Made by a program: the position numbers and the translations under genes. The notes beneath the pieces are model-generated. The model saw only the letters and a list, made by a program, of their open reading frames with translations. It did not search any database and was not told the origin of the DNA. Shown here in pieces: positions 3,438-33,955 of a stretch of 64,000 nt of DNA. How positions within the stretch are numbered: position 1 is the first letter of the stretch; every line of letters begins with the position of its first letter. Origin of the DNA: an uncultured Desulfobacterales bacterium (GTDB taxonomy: Bacteria; Desulfobacterota; Desulfobacteria; Desulfobacterales; JAHEIW01). The stretch lies in contig CAMYLV010000013.1 of assembly GCA_947259495.1 (NCBI GenBank), positions 144,078-208,077 on the forward strand, written 5' to 3'.

Positions 3438-4379
3438 TTGACAGAAAAGCAACCGGGTCTGCAAGCCGGAGTGCCGCATAGTGCTGCAAGAGAGCAGGTT
3501 GTCCGCAAGGTCACCTGGGTCGGACTTTTCGCAAATTTATTTCTTGCAGGATTTAAATTCACTGCCGGCATTTTAGGAAGAAGTCAGGCGCTGGTGGCCG
3601 ATGCCATCCACAGCCTTACGGATTTGACAACGGATATTGCCGTCATTGCGGGCTCTCATTACTGGTCCCGACCGCCGGATGAGTCCCATCCGTATGGACA
3701 TCAGCGCATGGAAACGCTTGTGACGGTATTTATCGGTATCGTATTGGCTGCAGCGGGTATCGGCGTCGGATGGAAAGCCATTTCAACCCTGCATGCAAAA
3801 CACGCATCATCTCCGGGTTGGATCGCGGTTATGGCGGCATTGCTTTCCATCATTTGTAAAGAAGCGATTTACCGCTGGACGGCCATCATCGGCAGAAGGG
3901 TTAAAAGCTCGGCTCTGGCTGCCAACGCCTGGCATCATCGCGCGGATGCAATCAGCTCGGTGCCGGTTTTAATTGCGGTGGCCGGTGCCCGTATTTTCCC
4001 ATCCTGGTCCTTCTTAGATCACGTGGGAGCCGCGGTCGTCTCAATCTTTATTTTGTATTCGTCAATTAAAATAATGTGGCCCGGACTCAGCGAACTGATC
4101 GATGTCGGAGCACCGACCGAAATACGAAAAAAAATCCGAACCAGTGCGCTTAAAAACGAAGGTGTCCTGCAGGTTCATGATATCAGAACCCGCTATGTCA
4201 GCTCCAGCATCCAGGTTGATTTGCATATTGTGGTCGAAGGCTCCCTAACCGTGCGTGAAGGCCATGATATTGCCGATGACGTAAAGCATCGCATCATCAC
4301 TGAAATTCAGGAGGTTCTGGACGTCATTGTTCACGTCGATCCACCCGAAAGAGCGCTCACGGAAGGAGATATGCGATAA
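3438..4379 (+). CDS. Cation diffusion facilitator family transporter
   Basis: About 313 residues. The segments ADAIHSLTDLTTD and HPYGHQRMETLV at the end of helices 2 and loop 2, then WHHRADAISS in helix 5, are the metal-binding motifs of CDF transporters (FieF/MamM group), and a cytoplasmic C-terminal domain ends in VIVHVDPPE. Six membrane helices are expected. It exports a divalent metal such as Zn, Fe or Mn in exchange for protons across the inner membrane. I chose the TTG at 3438 because GGAAGGA lies six bases before it; the in-frame ATG at 3423 has no ribosome-binding site. The gene stands alone, divergent from the alcohol dehydrogenase. Confidence 0.88.
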   Translation: MTEKQPGLQAGVPHSAAREQVVRKVTWVGLFANLFLAGFKFTAGILGRSQALVADAIHSLTDLTTDIAVIAGSHYWSRPPDESHPYGHQRMETLVTVFIGIVLAAAGIGVGWKAISTLHAKHASSPGWIAVMAALLSIICKEAIYRWTAIIGRRVKSSALAANAWHHRADAISSVPVLIAVAGARIFPSWSFLDHVGAAVVSIFILYSSIKIMWPGLSELIDVGAPTEIRKKIRTSALKNEGVLQVHDIRTRYVSSSIQVDLHIVVEGSLTVREGHDIADDVKHRIITEIQEVLDVIVHVDPPERALTEGDMR

Positions 4380-4470
4380 ATATCAGACGCACCGAGCCCA
4401 GCCATGCAGACCCCATCTGGTGGCTTTAAGTTGATCTATTGCTATTTTAAGCCAGCTTTAAAAATGTTGG

Positions 4471-4499
4471 TTGAAAATAGACGCATAACATCATATTCT
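4471..4499 (+). promoter_or_regulatory. Candidate sigma-70 promoter of the gsp operon
   Basis: TTGAAA at 4471-4476 and TATTCT at 4494-4499 are separated by 17 bases. Transcription would begin near 4506, leaving a leader of about 64 bases before gspF. Read from consensus similarity only. Confidence 0.45.
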
Positions 4500-4569
4500 T
4501 AACATGTTATGTTTTAGCTGCCGCCGATATCCTTGCGGACAATATGATAAATTACGGAGCAACCACGCA

Positions 4570-5802
4570 ATGCCGGTTTATGAATACACAGCCCTGGATG
4601 CCAAAGGCAAAATGACGTCCGGTATCATCGATGCGGACGGTGCCCGTGCCGCTCGACAGAAATTAAGAGGGAGCGGCATCTTTCCGGTTGATGTCAAAGA
4701 AACTCAGGAGAAGGAGACTCCGGAAAAAAAGACGACCCGGGTCGCTGATATAGCTCGCTATCTAAGGCGGGTTAAGCCTGCTGAAATTGCCATAATGACG
4801 CGACAGCTATCAACTTTGATCAGTGCGGGTTTTCCGCTGGTTTCTGCAATAGACGCCCTGGTACCCCAGACTAAATCCCATCGACTTAAGACTGTATTGG
4901 CCCAGTTAAAGGATGCCATCGTTGAAGGTCAGAGTTTTGCGCAAGCGTTATCGCAATATCCGGGGATTTTTACGCCGCTGTTTGTTAACATGGTCCGCGC
5001 CGGGGAGACTTCCGGCACACTCGAAATCGTTCTCGAGCGACTGGCCGATATTACGGAAAAACAGCAGGATTTGACCAACCGGATTCAAACCGCCCTGGCG
5101 TATCCGCTGTTTATGTGTGTCATCGGAACACTGGTATTGTTCGTGCTTTTGACCTACATTGTTCCGAGTATCACCGCCATTTTTTTGGACATGAACCAGG
5201 TATTGCCGGCACCAACTCGCTTGCTGATTTTTTTAAGTGGTTTTTTCAAATCGTTTTGGTGGGTTATTCTTATTGGGCTGATCGGCGCCGCTATAGCTTT
5301 GCATCGAGCCAAAAAAACCGACAAAGGGCGCTACGCGTTTGATAAAACCATGCTTGCAATACCAGCTTTTGGTGTTTTAGCAAAAAAACTGGCCGTGGCC
5401 CGTTTTACGCGCACGCTGGGCTCTTTGCTTGAAAACGGCGTTTCGATGTTAATTGCACTTGACATTGTCAAAAATATCGCCGGCAATGTGCTGATTTCCA
5501 ATGCTGTGGAAAAAGCATCCCGAGAGGTCGGTAAGGGGCAGGCCTTGTGGGCGGCCTTGAACGAAGGTCAAGTCTTTCCGCAATTGTCCATTCAAATGAT
5601 TCAGGTGGGCGAGCAAAGCGGTGAATTGGAAGCGATGCTCAATAAAATTGCTGATATATTTGAAAAAGAAGTCGAAAACAGTATCATGCGCCTGACGTCT
5701 TATCTGGAGCCGGTCATGATACTGGTAATGGGCTGTGTTGTCGGGTTTATTGTACTGTCAATTTGTCTTCCTATTTTTGAAATGAACCAGCTGATCAAAT
5801 AA
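4570..5802 (+). CDS. gspF: Type II secretion inner-membrane platform protein GspF
   Basis: 410 residues from the ATG at 4570, preceded by GGAG ten bases upstream; an upstream in-frame ATG at 4504 has no ribosome site and would add a non-homologous extension. The start MPVYEYTALDAKGK is the near-invariant N terminus of GspF. Two repeated cytoplasmic GspF domains (LSTLISAGFPLVSAI and LGSLLENGVSMLIAL are the equivalent helices) and three membrane helices can be seen. The protein is the polytopic platform that couples the ATPase GspE to pseudopilus growth. It opens a 12-gene operon, which is unusual because gspC or gspD normally comes first. Confidence 0.95.
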   Translation: MPVYEYTALDAKGKMTSGIIDADGARAARQKLRGSGIFPVDVKETQEKETPEKKTTRVADIARYLRRVKPAEIAIMTRQLSTLISAGFPLVSAIDALVPQTKSHRLKTVLAQLKDAIVEGQSFAQALSQYPGIFTPLFVNMVRAGETSGTLEIVLERLADITEKQQDLTNRIQTALAYPLFMCVIGTLVLFVLLTYIVPSITAIFLDMNQVLPAPTRLLIFLSGFFKSFWWVILIGLIGAAIALHRAKKTDKGRYAFDKTMLAIPAFGVLAKKLAVARFTRTLGSLLENGVSMLIALDIVKNIAGNVLISNAVEKASREVGKGQALWAALNEGQVFPQLSIQMIQVGEQSGELEAMLNKIADIFEKEVENSIMRLTSYLEPVMILVMGCVVGFIVLSICLPIFEMNQLIK

Positions 5803-5845
5803 TTGCGGTTATATTTTCCAACAGGCATGAGAAGGGAAACGTTAT

Positions 5846-6295
5846 ATGGGGACCACACTTAAAAATGACAACCGGGGATTTACGCTAATTGAGTTAATGG
5901 TTGTTGTGATTATATTGGGCATCCTGGCGCTATATGTTGGCCCAAAAATAATGGGAGAACCGGATAAAGCAAAGCGCGTAAAAGCTCAGATGGATATTGC
6001 CACCTTTGAGACCGCTTTAAAAATATACAAACTCGACAATGGTATATACCCGACAACCGAGCAGGGGCTTGTGGCGCTGGTTGAAAAACCCGAAACCGGT
6101 GCGATCCCAAAAAAATGGCGCGATGGGGGTTATCTTGAGAAACGCAAAGTGCCCAAAGATCCCTGGGGAAATGAATTCGTTTACATTTCGCCGGGCGTGA
6201 ATAGTGACTTTGATTTGATTTCCTATGGGAAAGACGGCGTTCCCGGCGGCGAAGGTGAGGATAATAAGGATATTAATAACTGGGAAATCGAGTAG
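5846..6295 (+). CDS. gspG: Type II secretion major pseudopilin GspG
   Basis: 149 residues. The leader ends NRG followed by [16 protein letters not shown], the prepilin peptidase site with Glu at +5 and a hydrophobic N-terminal helix. The C-terminal part ([35 protein letters not shown]) is diagnostic of GspG and includes the calcium-binding loop. It polymerises into the periplasmic pseudopilus that pushes substrates through the GspD secretin. The start ATG at 5846 is preceded by GAAGGGAA. No prepilin peptidase (gspO/pilD) is encoded in the window, so processing relies on an enzyme elsewhere. Confidence 0.96.
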
Positions 6296-6610
6296 TTTGC
6301 TGTCAGCAGGCGCGCCCTTTTGCGCAATCTCTGTGTCAATCTGCGGAATTGTATGGTGCGGCGTACTTTAAAGTACGCCTCCGCGTAAAACTTTGTGCAG
6401 CCTATCAAAAAAATCTTATACGGTTATGCAGAAAGCCCAAGTTAGTTTCTTTCAACCACGAAGGGCACGAAGGACCCGAAGAGGGAATGCCAATTAATTC
6501 ATCCTGCCTTTGTGATCTTCGTGGTGAGATCACTATCGGACGTAAGCGACTAGAACTTTCCAGATAACCACGAAACATTATTTAAGAATCGAAAACTTAA
6601 AATCAGAAAA
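6296..6610. repeat. gspG-gspH spacer with palindrome and ACGAAG-type repeat
   Basis: This spacer interrupts the tightly packed operon. It holds a perfect 20-bp palindrome at 6360-6379 (GGCGTACTTT/AAAGTACGCC), and an inverted repeat with CCACGAAG at 6456-6463 and CTTCGTGG at 6517-6524, the left arm extended by further ACGAAG units. A third ACCACGAA lies near 6568. Such ACCACGAAG blocks are dispersed intergenic repeats. I see no convincing gene; translation products here are low-complexity shadows. Confidence 0.6.
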
Positions 6611-7207
6611 ATGAATCGTCTCTGGACGAGCGTTTACAATAATAGCATAATGTTTTCAAAAGTCCTGAAACAGGAATTGAACTTACGCTACGGAAGACGG
6701 ACGACATACCACAGGCACCGTAACGGTTTTACGCTGATGGAACTGATTGTGGTCATGGCATTGTTGGCCATTTTGCTCATATTTAGTGTTCCCCGCTTGC
6801 ACGAAACCTTATTTTTGGATGAAAGCAAAACCAGTTCCCGATGGATTATCGGTAAAATTCAGGCTTTGAAAGAGGCGGCTGTTCGAAATCAGAAGCATTA
6901 TACATTACATATCGATCTGGATACGGACCATTACTGGGAAACCGACGAATCTATGCCGGCAGAAGATCTTGAAGGCGCCGCCATGCAAACCAAACCGTTA
7001 CCGGACGGTTTAAAAATCGCTGATATCGAATTTGCTGTTCGCGGAAAAATCAGTTCCGGTCGGACCGATATTACGTTTTACAAAGACGGTTACTCAGACA
7101 AAGCCCTGATTCATACACGAGATGGGGAAACATATGTATCGTATCTGATCGAGCCTTTTCTTTCTGAAGTAACCCGCTATGAGACTTACGCCGGTTTTGA
7201 AAATTGA
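6611..7207 (+). CDS. gspH: Type II secretion minor pseudopilin GspH
   Basis: Up to 198 residues. After a long basic leader, the peptidase site RNG followed by FTLMELIVVMALLAILL (Glu at +5) marks a pseudopilin, and position between gspG and gspI identifies GspH. The body is beta-rich and ends YLIEPFLSEVTRYETYAGFEN. Minor pseudopilins H, I, J and K form the tip complex that initiates pseudopilus assembly. The start is uncertain: ATG at 6611 gives a 46-residue leader, ATG at 6650 a 33-residue leader, and neither has a clear ribosome-binding site. Confidence 0.85.
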   Translation: MNRLWTSVYNNSIMFSKVLKQELNLRYGRRTTYHRHRNGFTLMELIVVMALLAILLIFSVPRLHETLFLDESKTSSRWIIGKIQALKEAAVRNQKHYTLHIDLDTDHYWETDESMPAEDLEGAAMQTKPLPDGLKIADIEFAVRGKISSGRTDITFYKDGYSDKALIHTRDGETYVSYLIEPFLSEVTRYETYAGFEN

Positions 7208-7368
7208 GTTGCACGTCCGAACAAAGGGGTCTGTTTGAAACTGCTCTGACGTTTTTGCAATCCGCCTGTAAGGCCCTGTTGACCACAAAGAACGCAAACC
7301 CGCCCACCGAAAACAGCGACATCATATCCGGGTCTGTAAGAATAAGAGTTGTCGACCATAAAAAAAGA

Positions 7369-7398
7369 TTGTAAGTTGGTTGTTAATTTTTGTATAAT
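7369..7398 (+). promoter_or_regulatory. Candidate internal promoter before gspI
   Basis: TTGTAA at 7369-7374 and a perfect TATAAT at 7393-7398 are separated by 18 bases, in the 225-bp spacer after gspH. It could give gspI-K extra transcription independent of gspF. Confidence 0.45.
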
Positions 7399-7432
7399 AT
7401 AAAATTACACATGTATAAAAAAGTGCACATTA

Positions 7433-7858
7433 ATGGCTGATTTTGAACATTGCCGATATCGAAAATTGTCGGGCTTTTCGCGATTCGCAGCCGGTTTTAC
7501 ATTGCTTGAAGTCATGGTTGCCCTGGCCGTCATGGCAATAGTTTTGGTGAGCGTATATCGCATGCATTCTCAGACCTTGACCATGAACACCGCAGCCCGC
7601 TTCTATACTCAGGCGCCTTTGCTGGCCCAAAAGAAAATGGCTGAGGTGGCAACAACTTCTGCAAGTGTTTTTGCAACTGATTCAGGCGATTTCGGTGAAA
7701 ATTACCCGGGATACAGCTGGCAGGTATCGGCGACCGATGTGTCTTCCGAGATTCTGGGAGAAGTTGCTGATGATTTTAAACGCATTGATGTTAGCGTGTC
7801 GTTTAATAACGACCAATTCTCATATAACTTAACGACCTATCGGTTTCAGAGGGAATAG
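7433..7858 (+). CDS. gspI: Type II secretion minor pseudopilin GspI
   Basis: 141 residues. The cleavage site AAG followed by FTLLEVMVALAVMAIVL has Glu at +5, and the mature start with the short size and position after gspH fits GspI. GspI is the core of the H-I-J-K tip complex in the periplasm. The leader is about 21 residues with basic residues. It is followed 25 bases later by gspJ. The preceding spacer holds a good promoter-like sequence. Confidence 0.9.
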   Translation: MADFEHCRYRKLSGFSRFAAGFTLLEVMVALAVMAIVLVSVYRMHSQTLTMNTAARFYTQAPLLAQKKMAEVATTSASVFATDSGDFGENYPGYSWQVSATDVSSEILGEVADDFKRIDVSVSFNNDQFSYNLTTYRFQRE

Positions 7859-7883
7859 ACAAATCCCAGGGAACAGGCAACAG

Positions 7884-8621
7884 ATGCCAGAAAACAGCGA
7901 ACAGAACCGCGCTAAGCGTGCCCCAAAACCAGAGATCGGCGGCCGCCGGCATTCGACCGCCGGCTTTACGTTGATGGAAATTCTGATCGCCATCGCGATA
8001 TTGGCAATCGTGGTGACGACTGCTTTGGCATCATTTAATGCCGTATTTTCAACCACAGAAGTTCTCGACGACAGTGCCAATCTATATGAAATGGCCCATA
8101 ACTGTATGAAACGCATCGTGCTGGACCTGACGTCGATGCACATTTCCCAGCGGCCCTTTTACAAACCGCCGGAATTTGATCAACCACCGGACCCATATCG
8201 CCTGGTCGCGACCACTGAGGAGACTGGTGGCACGGGATTTGCACAAAATTTAAGATTCACCAGCCGGGCCCACCTGCCCTTTGAAAAAAGTTCCAGGGAA
8301 GGGATCGCTGAAATCATATATTACCTTCAGGCCACGGATAACGAATATCTTAAGTTGAAACGTGCGGATAACAATTACCCGTATCCTGTCTTTGAACAAA
8401 AAGGCAGCGATCCGATATTGTGTAAGTACGTCAAATCATTGTCGTTTAAATTTTTTGACAAAGACGGAATTGAATTCGACATCTGGGATTCAGATTCCGA
8501 TGAATTCGGTTATGCGACACCAACAGCGATTGCCGTGAAACTGGAATTGGCAAAAAAAGCCGAAGCGCACACCTTTGAAACCATGGTGCCCTTGCCCCTG
8601 TTCCGGGAGAGAGCGGAATAA
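7884..8621 (+). CDS. gspJ: Type II secretion minor pseudopilin GspJ
   Basis: 245 residues. A 27-residue basic leader precedes TAG followed by FTLMEILIAIAILAIVV (Glu at +5). The larger size than GspH/I, the beta-rich body with IIYYLQ, and the position between gspI and gspK identify GspJ. It pairs with GspI and GspK at the pseudopilus tip. It ends three bases before the start of gspK, so translation of J and K is probably coupled. Confidence 0.9.
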   Translation: MPENSEQNRAKRAPKPEIGGRRHSTAGFTLMEILIAIAILAIVVTTALASFNAVFSTTEVLDDSANLYEMAHNCMKRIVLDLTSMHISQRPFYKPPEFDQPPDPYRLVATTEETGGTGFAQNLRFTSRAHLPFEKSSREGIAEIIYYLQATDNEYLKLKRADNNYPYPVFEQKGSDPILCKYVKSLSFKFFDKDGIEFDIWDSDSDEFGYATPTAIAVKLELAKKAEAHTFETMVPLPLFRERAE

Positions 8622-8624
8622 AAC

Positions 8625-9707
8625 ATGTTTCGTATGACCAAAACGATCAACAACAATCGCGGCATTGCCCTCTTGCTGGTCATTTCCGTGACGACCATTC
8701 TGGTCGCAACGGCTCTGGAATACAATCGCCGGGCACGCTTTACGGTACTGTCAACAACGGCTGCAAGGGATCGCCTGACGCTTTCGCAGATGGCATCTTC
8801 AGGCATCCACGCCGCCATGGCACTGCTGGCAAAAGATCGTGCCGAGTCGAATATTGACTCTTTGCAGGAGGACTGGGCAAATCCGGACAAAATAAATGAA
8901 CTTTTGAGTGAAATCCCGTTTGATGAGGGCGAGCTTACCGTCTCCATCACCGATGAAATGGGACGAATTCAAATCAATGCTCTGGTAACGTTTCCCGATA
9001 GCCGAAATTTTAATGATTCCCAGCGCCTGCTGCTCGAGCGGTATTTAAATTTTTTCAAGGATGCCACTGAAGAAACGCCGGAAGATAGCCAGCCGCCGGC
9101 AATTATCAATTCGCTCAAGGACTGGCTGGATTCCGGCGACGACGACGCTATTACCGGGCTAAGCGGTGCTGAGTCCGCATATTATCAGGATTTGAGCCCA
9201 TCTTACAGCAGTCGCAATGGTCCCATAGCGGACATCCATGATTTATTAATGATCAAAGGCATCACACCCGAATTGTTTTACGGCAGCTCTGAAAAGCCTG
9301 GAATCGCAGATGCTTTAACCGTGTATGGCATGCAACCGGGGGCCGGCACTGCATTTACATTTCCCGGCAAGATAAATGTCAACACCGCTGAACTTCCGGT
9401 CTTGGTCGCCCTGTTGCCGACTGAAAACCCAGATCTGGCCCAGACCTTATATGATTTGCGCCAGCAGGTTGCCACTGATAAAAATGCCCCTGACTTGTCA
9501 GACCCAGGTTGGTATAAGAATCTCGCCGGACTCAGCGGCTTAAATCTGGATACAAAATTGATCACCACCGCAAGTGACATATTCAGGATTGTATCTGGGG
9601 CCAAAGTAAACGATGCCGTGTTGATCGCTAACGCTGTGGTTCAACGGCAAAAAAATGAAAAAAACGGTAAATGGTTCTGCAAGATACTGAGCTGGAACAT
9701 AAAATAG
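8625..9707 (+). CDS. gspK: Type II secretion minor pseudopilin GspK
   Basis: 360 residues, the large size expected of GspK. The N-terminal NNNRGIALLLVISVTTIL has a prepilin-type site but lacks the Glu at +5, the hallmark of GspK and the reason it can only cap the pseudopilus. Helix-hairpin-helix-like GKINVNTAELPVL with the segment SLKDWLDSGDD matches the family's saddle domain. It sits at the tip and controls pseudopilus length. The next gene, gspL, follows after a 147-bp spacer whose first 17 bases (9707-9723) recur after another stop codon at 29371-29387. Confidence 0.93.
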   Translation: MFRMTKTINNNRGIALLLVISVTTILVATALEYNRRARFTVLSTTAARDRLTLSQMASSGIHAAMALLAKDRAESNIDSLQEDWANPDKINELLSEIPFDEGELTVSITDEMGRIQINALVTFPDSRNFNDSQRLLLERYLNFFKDATEETPEDSQPPAIINSLKDWLDSGDDDAITGLSGAESAYYQDLSPSYSSRNGPIADIHDLLMIKGITPELFYGSSEKPGIADALTVYGMQPGAGTAFTFPGKINVNTAELPVLVALLPTENPDLAQTLYDLRQQVATDKNAPDLSDPGWYKNLAGLSGLNLDTKLITTASDIFRIVSGAKVNDAVLIANAVVQRQKNEKNGKWFCKILSWNIK

Positions 9708-9854
9708 AAGCTGTCTCAAAAATGCATCTAAATTAATACCCATTTTTCCGGTATTTTGGTATTTTATAATTCAAGGCTATAAATGTTGAGTTCAGAGTTA
9801 TAAATTGTTAACCTATGAGCCTATGGTTCATTCGGGTAAGAAATTAAAGATTCT

Positions 9855-11306
9855 ATGAGCAGAAAAGTTCTCGGCATAGACATTCGAAATCAATCACTAA
9901 CCGCCGTGCTTTTAAGCAGCAGCCTGCGGGAGTACCACGTGGATGACTATATTCACCTGCCATTTTCCGGCCCTGATGACCTGGAAAGAAGCCTGTCGGC
10001 CGCTCTGGAAACCCTGACCGAGAGAATGGACTTGACCGGCAGTGACTATGTCGTTTCCGTCCCGGCCCACCAGTTTATTTTCCGGAACATGCAGATCCCC
10101 TTTCACAATTCCAAAAAAATCCGAATGGTTCTGCCCTTTGAACTCGAACCCACCCTGCCCTTTGCGGTCGAAGATCTGGCTATCGATTTTCACACATTGA
10201 ACGGCGCCCCGGCCGGCAATCAAACCGATCTCATTGCGGCGGCAATTGAAAAAAACCATTTAGCGCCATACATTGAGGCCCTTGCATCGGTGAACATCGA
10301 CCCGGAAAAACTGACGCTCAGCGGTTTACCCATCGCCCTGTGCCTGGCCCATCAGGCAGATCCCCAGGAGGACCTGTTATTTATCGAAATTGACGACGCT
10401 CATGCTACCCTCTTTGTTCTGGTGGGCGGCCGCCTGCAACTGATACGATCGTTTCCGCTGCCGGCCGCCGGACCTTCTAAGACGTCAATACTGTCTGCAC
10501 AGATACAGCAGACACTGGCGGCTTTCCAGGAATCATCGGCGTTGAATTTTGAACCCATAGAAGCGGTCTTAAATGGCATCGCAGACGTCGACGGCGAAAT
10601 GACGGCCGCTATTGCCAAAGTATTGGAAATACCGGTTAAAGTCGCATCAGTTGCGGAACGACTGAACATCCCGCTGGAAACAGATACGGAAAGTCAGTGG
10701 ATTCCGGCCCGAATGGACAATGCCCTGGCACTGGCGTTGATGGAGGTCGAAGGCTATGAAGCGCTCAATTTCCACAAGGGCCAGTTTGCCGCCCAGAAGT
10801 TTATAGCCAAGCATAAAAACGCCTTGATAAAAACCGGCATCCTGGCTGCAGCCGTATTGGTATTGATGTTTTTTAACCTGATGATGAAAACCCATACGTT
10901 AAACAAACGCATCGACGCCATCAACAACCAGATGACCCAGATTTTTAAAGAGACCTTTCCGGAGGTACAAACGGTTCGTTATCCCTTTCAGGAGATGCAG
11001 GCCAAGATGCGCGAAACCAAAGGTAATGCAGCCTTGCAGGCCGAAGCCGGCCCCCATGTCCGCAGTATTGACATCATAAACAACATCAGCGAAAAAATAC
11101 CCGCAAATATTACGGTAAATCTGAACCGGTTGGTCATTCAGCCTGAAAATGTGTTAATCTCGGGCACAACCGACACCTACGACGCGGTGGACGCGATTAA
11201 AAGCCGCCTGGAACAGATTCAGCCATTTAAAAAAGTTTCCATCAGTTCGGCCAACATCGATCGCTCGGGCAAAGAAGTACAGTTTATGCTGAAGGTTGAT
11301 CTATAA
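9855..11306 (+). CDS. gspL: Type II secretion inner-membrane protein GspL
   Basis: 483 residues. The start MSRKVLGIDIRNQSLTAVLL is an actin-like (ASKHA, PilM/GspL) fold, and the cytoplasmic domain extends to about residue 315. One membrane helix follows (ALIKTGILAAAVLVLMFFNL, near 318-337), then a periplasmic ferredoxin-like domain (INNISEKIPANITVNLNRL). GspL links the ATPase GspE to GspM and the rest of the inner-membrane platform. Its stop overlaps a possible TTG start of gspM. Confidence 0.92.
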   Translation: MSRKVLGIDIRNQSLTAVLLSSSLREYHVDDYIHLPFSGPDDLERSLSAALETLTERMDLTGSDYVVSVPAHQFIFRNMQIPFHNSKKIRMVLPFELEPTLPFAVEDLAIDFHTLNGAPAGNQTDLIAAAIEKNHLAPYIEALASVNIDPEKLTLSGLPIALCLAHQADPQEDLLFIEIDDAHATLFVLVGGRLQLIRSFPLPAAGPSKTSILSAQIQQTLAAFQESSALNFEPIEAVLNGIADVDGEMTAAIAKVLEIPVKVASVAERLNIPLETDTESQWIPARMDNALALALMEVEGYEALNFHKGQFAAQKFIAKHKNALIKTGILAAAVLVLMFFNLMMKTHTLNKRIDAINNQMTQIFKETFPEVQTVRYPFQEMQAKMRETKGNAALQAEAGPHVRSIDIINNISEKIPANITVNLNRLVIQPENVLISGTTDTYDAVDAIKSRLEQIQPFKKVSISSANIDRSGKEVQFMLKVDL

Positions 11307-29344: not shown

Positions 29345-29640
29345 GATATTAAAATGATTTTAATAAACGTGAAGCTATCTCAAAAATAGTAGATCACGTC
29401 CCCCGCTTGAAAGCGGGATTTCACATCTGATCCTAATACATTAAGGTGTTCAACAAAGCGCGACGAAAACCGATTCAAAACACATGACCCTTGACAGATT
29501 CTTAATTTTCTGGCAAGTTGGCGCTTTGTTCAAATTTTAGACCTTAAGATTTTGGATTTTATTTTTTAACGTGAAACATATACGCACAAGTAAATAATTC
29601 ATTTTTGCGCAGGCAAAAATGACACGGAGGATTTTAAAGC
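29345..29640. other. Spacer before the selenoprotein gene
   Basis: Holds a hairpin CCCGCT/AGCGGG at 29402-29417, an inverted repeat ACAAAGCGC (29453-29461) with GCGCTTTGT (29521-29529), and at 29371-29387 a copy of the 17-base string found after gspK at 9707-9723 (one mismatch). No gene is visible. A promoter for the downstream gene is expected near 29560-29600 but is not clear. Confidence 0.5.
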
Positions 29641-30963
29641 ATGGCTGAAGAGGCAATCAAACTCGGCGGAAAGAAAAAGAGTAAATTTATCGACCAGGTT
29701 AAAGCGCTTTTACCGGAAGGCGGCAATCTGAATCTTTGTCTGACCTGCGGCGCCTGCTCTTCCGGATGCCCGGCCACGGGCCTGGAAGACATGGACCCGC
29801 GAAAATTTCTGCGGATGGCCGCCCTGGGAATGGATGAAGAACTTCTGAACTCCGAGTGGGCCTGGTGCTGTACGTTGTGCATGCGCTGCATCTATGTCTG
29901 CCCCATGAAAATCGACATTCCCCAGCTGGTGTTCAACGTCCGAAAGAGCCGGCCCAGAGAAGATCGGCCCAAAGGCATTTTAGGTTCCTGTGATATGGCA
30001 CTGCGCAACGATACCTGCAGCGCCATGGGCGCCACCGAGGAAGATTTTCAATTCGTGGTCGAAGACGTTCTGGAAGAAATTCAACAAACCCAGGAAGGAT
30101 TTGCGGATCTGAAGGCACCCGTCAACAAGCAAGGCGCTTACTACTTTCTAAATCAGAACTCCCGCGAGCCGGTCACCGAGCCCGATGAAATGGTGCCCCT
30201 GTGGAAAATCCTGCACATCGCCGGTGCGGACTGGACCTACGGCACCAAAGGCTGGGCGGCCGAAAACTACTGCATGTTTATGGCGGACCTTGAAAACTGG
30301 GAAAAAATCGTCAGGACGAAAGCCAAAGCCGTCGATGACCTGGGCTGCAAGGTCTGGCTCAATACCGAGTGAGGGCACGAACTGTTCGCAGTCCGGGTCG
30401 GACTGCAAAAATTCAACATCGAGCACAAGTTTGAAATCGAAAGCATTATCCGATTGTATGCCCTGTGGATCCGGGAAGGCAAGCTGAAGGTCAGCTCCGA
30501 ATGGAACAAGGACCGTCAGATTAAATTTACCTGCCAGGACCCGTGCCAGCTGGTTCGTAAAACATTAGGCGACCCTGTCGCCGAAGATATGCGCTATGTG
30601 GTCAAAGCCGTGGTGGGGGAGGAAAACTTTATTGACATGACCCCCAACCGCTCCAACAATTATTGCTGCGGCGGGGGCGGCGGCTTTTTGCAAAATGGCA
30701 TGCCCGACCAACGCCGCGCCTTCGGCAAGGTCAAATTCGACCAGATCATGGCTACCGGCGCCACTTACTGCATTACCCCGTGCCACAACTGCCATGCACA
30801 GATTCATGATATCAGCGAACATTTCGAGGGCGGTTATCATTCGGTGCATCTGTGGACCCTGATCTGCCTGTCCATGGGCATCCTGGGTGAAAATGAGCGC
30901 GAATATCTGGGGCCGGATCTGGCGGATGTGGATGTGCTGCCGTCCAAAGAACTGGAGGAATAA
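29641..30963 (+). CDS. HdrD/DsrK-like iron-sulfur protein, predicted selenoprotein (Sec244)
   Basis: 440 residues if the in-frame TGA at 30370-30372 is read as selenocysteine; both halves are in the same frame. Two ferredoxin-type [4Fe-4S] sites are present: CLTCGACSSGCP (Cys33, 36, 39, 43) and CCTLCMRCIYVCP (Cys77, 80, 83, 87). The C-terminal CCG domain has CQDPC (298, 302), CCGGGGG (342-343) and CHNC (381, 384). The TGA stands in the context NTE-U-GHE, where homologues carry a conserved Cys-Gly-His, so Sec replaces a probable cluster or thiol-redox cysteine of the first, degenerate CCG domain. A SECIS-like hairpin follows at 30388-30406. Relatives (HdrD, DsrK, HmcF, TmcB) pass electrons to disulfides or thiols in anaerobic respiration. 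No membrane or HdrA partner is adjacent. The alternative, a nonsense pseudogene, is disfavoured by the hairpin and intact second half. Confidence 0.85.
30370..30372 (+). other. In-frame TGA, predicted selenocysteine codon
   Basis: The codon lies between GAG (Glu243) and GGG (Gly245). The reading frame is open for 243 codons before and 196 codons after it. The expected family residue is Cys (TGC/TGT), one base from TGA. Confidence 0.85.
30388..30406 (+). promoter_or_regulatory. Bacterial SECIS-like hairpin of the HdrD-like gene
   Basis: A perfect 7-bp stem GCAGTCC/GGACTGC encloses the loop GGGTC. The loop begins 22 bases after the TGA and starts with two G, as required for SelB binding by bacterial SECIS elements. 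Confidence 0.8.
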
Positions 30964-30997
30964 GCGTAACAGCATCACGACAATTTAAAAACAAACA

Positions 30998-31029
30998 AAA
31001 ACCCGGCCATCAAAAGGCCGGGTTTTTTT
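30998..31029. terminator. Intrinsic terminator, probably bidirectional
   Basis: AACCCGGCC (31000-31008) pairs with GGCCGGGTT (31016-31024) around a seven-base loop, followed by seven T and preceded by an A run. It ends the selenoprotein gene and may also stop the convergent fdhA transcript. Confidence 0.88.
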
Positions 31030-31186: not shown

Positions 31187-33955
31187 CTATGCTGCCTTAG
31201 AGACCTTGACCGCACAGACTTTGTATTCCGGGATACCCGAAATCGGATCCAGGGCTGCGTTGGTCAGCCGGTTGGCAGCAGCCGTCGCAAAATGAAAAGG
31301 AATAAAGACGGTCCCGGTAACAGCCTTACGCGATATTTTGATCCGCGCCTGAATCGTCCCCCGGCGGGAATCAATGTTGACCAGGGTTCCTTCTTCCACT
31401 TCAAATTTACGGGCATCCTGTGGTGAAATTTCCACAAAAGCCTCCGGCGCAATTTGATTTAATCCGCCGGTTCGCATGGACATCGTGCCGGTATGGTACT
31501 GGTAGAGCAGCCGCCCGGTGGTCAGATACAGCGGGTATTCAGCATCGGTCATTTCAGCCGGCTCGATGTAATCAATCGCATGGAAAAGGCCCTTGCCGCG
31601 GGTAAATTGTTCGCCGTGCAAAATCGGGGTGCCGGGGTGTTCGGCCGTCGGACAGGGCCAGTGCAGGCCCTCATGTTCGATGCGCTCGTAGCTGATACCG
31701 GCATAAGACGGTGTCACCTTTGATATTTCTTCCATGATTTGCTGGCTGCTGTCGTAAGCCATCGGATGCCCCATCCGCGTGGCAATTTCACACAGTATTT
31801 TCCAATCGTCCCAGGCCTCTCCCGGTGCATCCACGGCTTTGCGCACCCGTTGCACGCGACGCTCGGTATTGGAAAAGGTGCCGTCTTTTTCGGCATAACA
31901 GGCTGTGGGCAACACGACATCGGCCCGCTGGGCGGTTTCCGTCAAAAAGATATCCTGCACCACCATAAAATCCAAATTATCCATGCATTTTTCGGCGTGG
32001 TTGACATCCGGATCGGAGACCACCGGATTTTCACCAATGATATACAGTGCTTTGAACGTGCCGTCATGGGCCGCCGGCATCATTTGGGTAGCTTTCATTC
32101 CGGGCTGGTCGGGCAGCTCGGCCACACCCCAGGCCTCGGCCATGCGCTTGCGCGCTTCAGCATCAATGACTTTCTGGTAGCCGGAATACACATCCGGCAG
32201 TCCGCCCATGTCACAGGCGCCCTGAACGTTGTTTTGGCCGCGCAGCGGATTGACCCCGCCGCCCGCGAGGCCCATGTTGCCGCACAGCATGGCCAGGTTG
32301 GCCAAAGATTTGACATTATCGGTCCCGGTGGTGTGCTGGGTAATGCCCATACAGTATAAAATGCAGCCGCGTTCAGCTTTGGCATAAAGCCGGGCGGCGT
32401 CAATAATTTCCTGCGTCGGAATACCGGTGATTTGCTCCACAACATCGGGGGTAAATTTTTCAACCATTTTTTGCAAATCGTCAAAACCCTCGGTCCGGCT
32501 TTCAATAAATTGCTTGGCGTGCAGACCCTCTTTAATGATCACGTGCATCAGGCCGTTAATCCAGGCCACATCGGTCCCCAGATTCTGACGCAACCATTTA
32601 TCCGCATAGCGGGTGATTCGGATGCGCCGGGGATCGACAACAATGAGCTTGGTTCCCTTAAGGGTTACGGCCCGCTTGACCCCGCTGGATATTACCGGAT
32701 GGTTTTCGGTGGTATTGGATCCGGTGATTAAAATCACATCCGCATCTTCGATATCGGCGATGGTGTTGGTCATTGCCCCGCTTCCAAATGCCGCGGCCAG
32801 ACCGGCCACAGTGGAGGAATGTCAGAGGCGGGCGCAGTGGTCGACATTGTTGGTCTGCACAACCGCGCGTGCAAACTTCTGGGCAATATAATTCTCTTCA
32901 TTGGTAATTCGCGCAGACGTCAAGAACCCGATGGTGTCGGCGCCGTGCTCGGATTTGATGTCGCCCAGTTTGCGGGCCACCAGTTCCAGGGCCTCATCCC
33001 AGGATGCTTCGCGAAACGCGCCGTTTTCTTTGATCAGCGGGGTTTTCAAACGATCGGGTGAGTGGATAAAATCAAATCCGAAACGGCCTTTGACGCACAG
33101 GCTGCCATAATTCGGCGCCACCGCTTCCACCCCGCTGACTTTGACCACCCGGTTTTCTTTGACATGCAGATTGAGCTGACAGCCCACCCCACAGTAGCTG
33201 CAGGTGGTACGTACCTTGCGTGTTTCCCAGGGCCGGGCCTCGTAGCGCGAGTCTTTTTCAACCAGGGCGCCCACGGGGCAGGCCTGAACACATTCGCCAC
33301 AAAAGACACAATCCGAGTTGATGTAGGGTCGATCGCCGGCAGCAATAATTTTGGAGGCAGCGCCGCGATATCCGAAATGAATGGCCTGGTTTACCTGCAC
33401 TTCGTTGCAGGCCTGGACACATCGGCCGCACTGAATGCAGCGCGAAAAATCACGTAAAATGAACGGATTGGCCGTTTCCATCGGATAGGTGGTCTCGGTG
33501 GGCTCAAATTGCTCGCCGGTGACTTGATAGCGAAAGGCCAGATCCTGCAGGCGGCAGTCCCCCCAGACCGGGCAAAGTTTCGTATCTTCCTCGGCTTTGA
33601 TCACGTTCAGTTGGAATTCGGTCCAGTTGTCGGCGGTGCTTCCGCTAACCGCGCAGTTGTGATTCCCGGAAGACAGCAGCAGCTGGAGGACCATGCGGCG
33701 AGCTTCAATAATTTTAGGCGTCTCCGTTTGAACTTCCATATTGGGTGCGACAGGCGCTGAACAGGCGCTTACCAGGCTGCGCGCACCTTTAACCTCCACC
33801 ACGCACATGCGGCAGGCACCGGTCGGGGTCGTTCCTTTCAGCCAACACAGAGTTGGAATATCAATACTGTTTCGACGGGCCACCTCCAGGATGGTTTCTC
33901 CCGCTTCAAATGGAAATTCGTTACCATTGATGAGAACACTATTTTCGGAAGGCAT
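31187..33955 (-). CDS. fdhA: Selenocysteine formate dehydrogenase alpha subunit, NuoG-like N terminus
   Basis: 922 residues when TGA (complement of 32822-32824) is decoded as Sec378, in DHCARLU-HSSTVAGLA, the usual Sec site of formate dehydrogenases. Domains in order: [2Fe-2S] (Cys37, 48, 51, 65), a NuoG-like His/Cys region, two [4Fe-4S] ferredoxin sites (CIQCGRCVQAC and CVFCGECVQACP), the [4Fe-4S] of the molybdopterin domain (CSYCGVGC ... SLCVKGRFGFD), then the Mo/W-bis-PGD catalytic and dinucleotide-binding domains. No Tat signal, so it is cytoplasmic. It interconverts formate and CO2 with NAD(P) or ferredoxin. No NuoE/NuoF-like partner, maturation or sel gene is next to it. It converges with the HdrD-like selenoprotein gene. 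Confidence 0.95.
32791..32811 (-). promoter_or_regulatory. Bacterial SECIS hairpin of fdhA
   Basis: On the minus strand GTGGCC pairs with GGCCGC (one G-U pair, extendable by two pairs) around the loop GGTCT. The loop starts 18 bases after the TGA and begins with GG, very like the E. coli fdhF element. Confidence 0.85.

Follow-up and report, generated by a model that had tools for sequence, protein, structure and literature searches.

A selenoprotein named Fe-S oxidoreductase (GlpC) was predicted in print by 2006, with a glpC-hdrA-frhD-frhG-frhA operon in Syntrophobacter (PMC1794560), and an Fe-S oxidoreductase-like selenoprotein has been listed with the motif UGH under PTHR43551 (PMC13188914). 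A 2016 survey gives 47 sequences in 31 organisms, if its table columns are organisms and sequences (PMC5029168). Among sulfate reducers, the genome paper on Desulfobacterium autotrophicum reports a selenocysteine (Sec) hdrD4 and the HdrL type (PMC2702500), and the five Sec genes listed in the paper on Desulfococcus multivorans do not include the family treated here (PMC5109826).

Two further systems bear on function. An Hdr-type methylene-tetrahydrofolate (methylene-THF) reductase (HdrCBA, MvhD, MetV and MetF) has been described for Moorella and Sporomusa; pull-downs, including one for Sporomusa HdrB, show contacts among MetF, HdrA, HdrB and MvhD, and an additional redox partner is given as unknown in acetogens (PMC9430772). 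A marine Chloroflexi genome carries an HdrC-HdrB fusion in a MetVF cluster, in an account whose description of the fusion does not mention Sec (PMC5736913). In the structurally characterised EtfD, cluster D1 is a linear [3Fe-4S] cluster held by Cys503, 538, 581 and 584, and D2 is a noncubane [4Fe-4S] cluster held by Cys637, 672, 673, 709 and 712 together with His583 (PMC13083937).

The window, by which we mean the whole stretch of 64,000 nucleotides that was analysed, holds a gene of the HdrC-HdrB (HdrCB) fusion type with an in-frame TGA. The gene stands alone, with a quinone-reductase-type gene upstream and a convergent formate dehydrogenase gene (fdhA). The features are as follows.

29626..29630, plus strand: GGAGG, resembling a ribosome-binding site, 10 bases 5' of the ATG (read directly in the sequence)
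29641..30963, plus strand: predicted selenoprotein gene of the HdrCB fusion type, 440 residues with TGA as Sec (reading frame, Pfam and NCBIfam matches, TGA in 81 of 81 loci)
29728..29913, plus strand: HdrC-like part with two [4Fe-4S] motifs; Fer4_8 at residues 30-91; Cys 33, 36, 39, 43, 77, 80, 83 and 87 (Pfam, alignment)
30370..30372, plus strand: TGA codon 244, predicted Sec in TE-U-GHE, aligned with EtfD Cys581 (frame and alignments)
30376..30378, plus strand: codon of His246; its EtfD counterpart is His583, sixth ligand to noncubane cluster D2 (alignment)
30388..30406, plus strand: SECIS-type hairpin, 7-bp stem GCAGTCC (30388-30394) / GGACTGC (30400-30406), loop GGGTC (30395-30399), seven perfect pairs
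30529..30804, plus strand: HdrB-like second CCG domain, Pfam match at residues 297-388; Cys 302, 342, 343, 381 and 384 corresponding to the five Cys of EtfD noncubane cluster D2 (Pfam, alignment)
30997..31027, strand unassigned: terminator-like hairpin between the HdrCB gene and convergent fdhA (scored on the minus strand by the scan; on the plus strand, too, a T run follows)
31187..33955, minus strand: formate dehydrogenase alpha gene (fdhA), convergent, with in-frame TGA at 32824-32822, codon 378, in CARL-U-HSS, followed by a hairpin (frames, domain models)

The TGA at codon 244 and its hairpin

From the ATG at 29641 the frame is open for 243 codons up to the TGA at 30370-30372 and for another 196 codons up to the TAA at 30961-30963. 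Both this frame and the TGA context, given in the earlier note as NTE-U-GHE, were confirmed on re-reading, with TE-U-GHE at codon 244. TGA codons with at least 60 open codons on both sides occur at 25 places in the window, the HdrCB gene and fdhA included. Hence, a TGA flanked by open frames is in itself no rarity, and the case rests on the family match through the TGA, the conservation of the codon and the pattern of substitution.

Decoding of TGA 244 as Sec by the usual SelB/SECIS route is strongly supported from the sequence. The NCBIfam HmcF model aligns with residues 31-408 across the TGA, below its cut-off, and the TmcB and DsrK models also span it; among Pfam domains, Fer4_8 lies before the TGA and CCG after it. 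At the motif [ED]-U-GHE the codon is TGA in 81 of 81 loci, namely the window and 80 loci from genome contigs, which as the best 80 of 575 confirmed places are biased to close relatives. Between the window and one such locus (L053), differences at codon positions 1, 2 and 3 number 26, 12 and 118 upstream of the TGA and 18, 16 and 86 downstream. Substitution is thus biased to the third position on both sides, which is a coding-type pattern.

Comparison of Cys with TGA at residue 244 extends this to 101 aligned sequences, the 81 close loci and 20 more distant members of the phylum: 88 have Sec and 13 have Cys. All 13 Cys members are among the 20 distant ones, which hold 7 Sec; in place of ECGH, two Cys rows have ECAH and one has DCGG. 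Cys also occupies the position in the HmcF, HmcF-like, TmcB and DsrK-like paralogues of the own genome, in keeping with the replacement of a cysteine that had been proposed. A wider search of the phylum at 1e-60 found 116 matches, spread over 77 of 297 genomes; some of these matches have no internal stop. Within the window's class, matches at E <= 1e-40 occur in 250 of 291 genomes, a loose threshold that admits HmcF-like paralogues because that of the own genome, with Cys and without a stop, matches at 7.2e-47; strong matches (1e-120 or better) occur in 223 of the 291. Each of the best class matches listed (to 3.5e-234) contains one or more in-frame TGA codons.

Among these best matches listed, three members have a second in-frame stop (G234:C376:6988-8283, G085:C12:7257-8549 and G218:C102:9274-10581). 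One genome has TGA and TAG, possibly Sec and pyrrolysine or an error, and the other two have two TGA each.

We found selA, selB, selD and tRNA-Sec in the own genome, where the earlier note had proposed to look for sel genes; the tRNA-Sec scores 75.2 bits against a gathering score of 47, and selD itself has one TGA. Cys homologues and sel genes, whose absence would have spoken against the earlier note, are thus both present. The in-frame TGA of fdhA, which marks a second selenoprotein, is an independent sign of Sec decoding; we make no claim of a complex shared with the HdrCB protein. The gene selA is present in 35 of 35 genomes tested, Cys-only ones included, so its presence does not track the use of Sec or Cys. 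In eight selA-positive genomes the only family match at 1e-60 has no stop; hence, selA has not been lost there.

The SECIS-type hairpin had been described as starting 22 bases downstream of the TGA. Its 7-bp stem and loop GGGTC were found as described, but 15 bases separate the TGA from the stem and 22 is the distance to the loop. In two overlapping stretches the region folds better than shuffled sequences (z of -2.76 and -2.83), with 3 of 200 shuffles at least as good; an Rfam scan of the window at gathering scores gave no match. At least six of the seven pairs form in 75 of 80 different close Sec sequences. In 35 aligned Sec sequences picked by hand from close loci (32 distinct), 90.6% of the cells in stem columns pair and three pairs show change on both sides, compared with 9-34% pairing when the partners are slid by 1-3 columns. 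The covariation score was 0.173 against a shuffled mean of 0.107, with 0 of 500 shuffles as high. One covariation measure, the number of further pair types, gave no clear excess over shuffles (62 of 500 as high), and the outermost stem pair is not kept, being absent in 18 of the 32 sequences.

Farther away the hairpin is less regular. In the same register, three of the seven more distant Sec members have 7/7 pairs, L196 has five, L197 four, and L198 and L199 only two, so that any hairpin in these last two is shifted. Ten Cys homologues form 1-5 of the 7 pairs, a count that leaves out L185, L189 and L200, which the motif used did not fit. The closest Cys homologue, L181, is 72% identical and folds at the hairpin site with -2.6 kcal/mol; the Cys row L192 folds with -10.7 kcal/mol (z of -1.6). 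Since L192 still folds, loss of the hairpin is not uniform among Cys members.

Family membership and the predicted selenocysteine site

By its motif, domains and neighbours, the window protein can be placed in the predicted selenoprotein family "Fe-S oxidoreductase (GlpC)" with motif UGH, to which we judge that it belongs; the UGH motif, the ferredoxin domain and the CCG domain are all present. This is a sighting of a known predicted family, and what is new is the functional lead. The earlier note had mentioned reports of Fe-S oxidoreductase selenoproteins of this broad type, but it did not name this already listed family. Its label of HdrD/DsrK-like holds as to homology but is loose, because the NCBIfam cut-offs for DsrK, HmcF and TmcB are not reached and the family forms a separate clade on the tree. 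Membership of these three groups was rejected on scores of 111.7 against a curated cut-off of 400 for DsrK, 167.4 against 750 for HmcF and 155.9 against 735 for TmcB.

A tree built from 48 chosen rows sets the family apart from the HmcF, TmcB and DsrK-like rows (support 100/99); its rooting is unsure because long branches come together among the outgroups. The starred branches of this tree force at least six changes between Sec and Cys. For example, L181 (Cys) lies inside the Sec clade beside L117 (97/88).

A DsrK-like protein is also encoded in the own genome at C13:213328-214284 (L136), about 5 kb past the window end. It has Cys (ECGTAY) at the equivalent position and scores 262.9 against the DsrK cut-off of 400.

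We also aligned 30 sequences, including the HmcF, HmcF-like, TmcB and DsrK-like paralogues of the own genome, and found invariant, among others, the eight ferredoxin Cys, E243, C/U244, G245, C302, C342, C343, C381 and C384. A profile from this alignment matches EtfD (PDB 9ojn) with an E value of 4.5e-19 over EtfD residues 293-718. Read by eye from this gapped profile alignment, with the EtfD numbering verified, U244 corresponds to Cys581 of cluster D1, and the other three ligand positions of D1 (Cys503, Cys538 and Cys584) are taken by Gly165, Tyr200 and E247. For cluster D2, Cys 302, 342, 343, 381 and 384 correspond to Cys637, 672, 673, 709 and 712, and H246 to His583. Hence, the first cluster has lost three of its four ligands and has Sec in the place of the fourth, which agrees with the earlier proposal that the first CCG domain lacks its core and has Sec at its Cys. 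Two complete CCG motifs, for two catalytic noncubane clusters, characterise HdrB and HdrD; here the second is complete and the first keeps one position. Of the first CCG domain, Sec thus seems to be all that is left, and it lies two residues from the probable His ligand of the noncubane cluster.

Neighbouring genes and the candidate complex

Clustering of the open frames of the 81 loci revealed a recurrent group of neighbours. At one locus (L082) these were identified as HdrL (a flavoprotein of the HdrA type that also has an NAD(P)H-binding domain; it scores 826.8 bits with the HdrA2 model, less than the cut-off of 1100), MvhD (FlpD), MetV (PF12225) and MetF (PF02219). At the 81 loci, 42 of which have long flanks, we then used similarity searches to count neighbours encoded on the same strand no more than 9 kb away. 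HdrA/HdrL lies near the HdrCB gene in 37 of 81 loci, MvhD, MetV and MetF in 38 each, and all four in 34; among the 42 loci with long flanks the counts are 24 for HdrA/HdrL and for MvhD, 23 for MetV and for MetF, and 22 for all four. The 34 loci have the orders Hdr-MvhD-SEC-MetV-MetF (19), Hdr-MvhD-MetV-MetF-SEC (12) and MetV-MetF-Hdr-MvhD-SEC (3). Neither Hdr/MetV genes nor fdhA were seen in 28 of 81 loci, 11 of them among the 42 with long flanks.

Many loci of the order Hdr-MvhD-MetV-MetF-SEC have a response regulator before the Sec gene and aroE after it. In L099, L083, L084, L101 and L127 a small response-regulator receiver protein is encoded between MetF and the Sec gene, and aroE follows. 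L099 comes from Desulfonema magnum, a cultured relative, and has the Sec gene downstream of HdrL-MvhD-MetV-MetF.

The association extends beyond close relatives: 8 of 13 Cys loci and 6 of the 7 distant Sec loci fetched have HdrA/HdrL and MvhD on the strand of the family gene; five of the 13 Cys members have no HdrA/HdrL nearby, some of them on short contigs. Across 297 genomes of the phylum, 70 have both the family (1e-60) and MetV (1e-30), 7 the family only, 140 MetV only and 80 neither (Fisher p 2e-6), a weak link because MetV occurs in several enzyme types and kinship was not removed. Less than 8 kb separates a family place from a listed MetV in at least 8 of 78 places (those in genomes with a MetV row taken, out of 116 places in all), compared with about 0.56 expected for 4-Mb genomes; the 81 MetV rows were taken by hand among the matches listed, nearly all from genomes that hold the family.

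The own genome has MetV-family genes on contigs C38, C20 and C16. The C38 locus (L146, C38:36000-55900; operon at about 4200-11030) reads HdrL-MvhD-MetV-MetF, with in-frame TGA in HdrL (NDCAM-U-IISP) and in MvhD (FCCNF-U-GYTAADL), and we take each of the two to be a selenoprotein. Neither HdrB nor HdrC was found in the 19.9 kb fetched around this operon. It is therefore plausible that its HdrCB subunit is encoded apart from it, by the window gene. An alternative HdrBC for the C38 operon could come from C20 or C8, which carry HdrB-like genes as well.

On C20 (L147, C20:40000-59900) HdrA-, HdrB- and HdrC-like genes are followed further on by MetF, MetV and a 1043-residue protein. This is a second candidate Hdr/methylene-THF reductase set.

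Operons of the type HdrL-MvhD-MetV-MetF were fetched from 24 genomes after a MetV search of 40 genomes, picked mostly for having the Sec gene. The Sec gene lies inside the operon in 8 of the 24, an HdrC-HdrB pair in one, and neither was seen in 15. The pair heads the operon in G270, a member of the window's genus that also has a family match at 4.7e-234, and this weakens the subunit assignment. In two of the 15 (G010 and G047) the contig ends soon after the operon and the Sec gene may lie beyond; three others (G003, G229 and G227) have the response regulator and aroE here, but lack the Sec gene that separates the two at other loci. All 15 genomes hold a family member elsewhere, which is no test since most were chosen for holding the family.

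Our overall reading, at a probability of about 60%, is a Sec-containing HdrCB protein with a selenol beside a noncubane cluster, equivalent to HdrBC in HdrA/HdrL-MvhD complexes, with the window gene as a detached subunit of methylene-THF reductase. Once TGA 244 is decoded as Sec through SelB and SECIS, the two ordinary N-terminal [4Fe-4S] clusters would exchange electrons with one noncubane [4Fe-4S] cluster in the second CCG domain, as the motifs and the EtfD alignment suggest. The first CCG domain would have lost its cluster, with Sec at the single surviving ligand position. Because this lone position lies near the probable His ligand, Sec would most likely act as a selenol, attacking or holding a sulfur substrate or partner beside the noncubane cluster, where it may meet a disulfide, a thiol partner or a cluster iron. 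The protein would be the HdrBC-equivalent subunit of HdrA/HdrL-MvhD flavin complexes, the best candidate being the Hdr-type methylene-tetrahydrofolate reductase HdrL-MvhD-MetV-MetF. Judged from the loci of relatives, this role is likely for the family and less sure for the window copy.

A possible but rather doubtful alternative keeps the selenoprotein and lets the window copy work with the adjoining Sec formate dehydrogenase and an HdrA-MvhD module from elsewhere, as a formate-linked Hdr complex in place of methylene-THF reductase. FdhA lies within the flank in 15 of the 81 loci, the window included, so the pairing recurs, and HdrBCA-MvhD-FdhBA clusters with Sec FdhA are described from the Chloroflexi genome and likened there to Desulfobacula toluolica (PMC5736913). 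However, only 2 of these 15 loci also have Hdr genes nearby, and in the window the two genes converge on a terminator-like hairpin.

It is unlikely that the selenoprotein is instead a DsrK-like subunit of a disulfide or DsrC-trisulfide reductase, fed by a membrane or soluble donor and independent of HdrA. Such a role would fit its relationship to HmcF, TmcB and DsrK, which share the lone E-C-G position, but its clade stands apart from those paralogues (100/99, though long branches meet), and 24 of the 42 long-flank loci have HdrA/HdrL nearby, the same number as for MvhD.

A genuine stop at the TGA, or an error of sequencing or assembly, leaving a broken gene or two proteins, is very improbable: the standard code reads TGA as stop and open frames of at least 60 codons flank a TGA on each side at 25 places in the window, but the codon is TGA in 81 of 81 loci from many assemblies, with a SECIS-type hairpin, sel genes and coding-type substitution after the TGA. 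A pseudogene or assembly error was rejected on this conservation and on the codon-position pattern.

The preferred reading, a Sec HdrCB subunit of methylene-THF reductase, has an extension that we hold to be improbable as a whole: an enzyme with three Sec proteins (HdrL, MvhD and HdrCB), in which Sec would replace a whole cluster at the substrate end and oxidation of methyl-THF would be coupled to the reduction of a sulfur partner, for example the DsrC trisulfide. In acetate oxidation, the step that oxidises methyl-THF, at about -200 mV, has been named as an energetic barrier (PMC6895022). The host, judged by its relatives, probably belongs to a group of sulfate reducers; if the extension is true, the one-carbon pathway would be joined directly to sulfate respiration. 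With Sec where one expects the substrate end of the Hdr part to be, this subunit, from a family with strong matches in 223 of 291 class genomes, offers a concrete place to seek the unknown redox partner. The natural Sec/Cys pairs give a chance to ask what selenium does beside a noncubane cluster.

Comparison with known systems

We found no statement in the literature that ties a Sec HdrCB protein to MetV-MetF, in a search that covered mainly papers outside subscription. DsrK, HmcF and TmcB are homologous to the window protein and have the lone E-C-G position in common; the own-genome copies differ in carrying Cys where the window protein has Sec. EtfD of M. smegmatis (PDB 9OJN; PMC13083937) has a ferredoxin domain and then two CCG domains in the same order, and the five Cys and the His of its noncubane cluster match. 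It differs, as described, in being membrane-bound, with a linear [3Fe-4S] cluster in CCG1 and without Sec, whereas in the window protein three of the four CCG1 ligands appear to be missing and the fourth to be Sec.

The enzyme of Moorella and Sporomusa (HdrCBA-MvhD-MetVF, PMC9430772) resembles the set in the window's relatives, where HdrC and HdrB functions, HdrA, MvhD, MetV and MetF are encoded together. In contrast, HdrC and HdrB are fused in the window protein and contain Sec, and in the own genome Sec is predicted both in MvhD and in HdrL, the form of HdrA fused to an NAD(P)H domain; the complex itself is here a proposed one. HdrD4 of D. autotrophicum HRM2 is, by its description, likewise a soluble Sec protein of the HdrCB type, from a sulfate reducer whose HdrL and MvhD proteins contain Sec too, and the account of it does not tie HdrD4 to MetF (PMC2702500).

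The closest likeness by description is to the Fe-S oxidoreductase (GlpC) family, an Fe-S oxidoreductase with the U-G-H motif from Deltaproteobacteria that lies beside hdrA and frhD in Syntrophobacter (PMC1794560, PMC13188914). To those accounts, which give the family no function, the present analysis adds the link to MetV-MetF, the mapping onto EtfD and the count of Cys/Sec changes.
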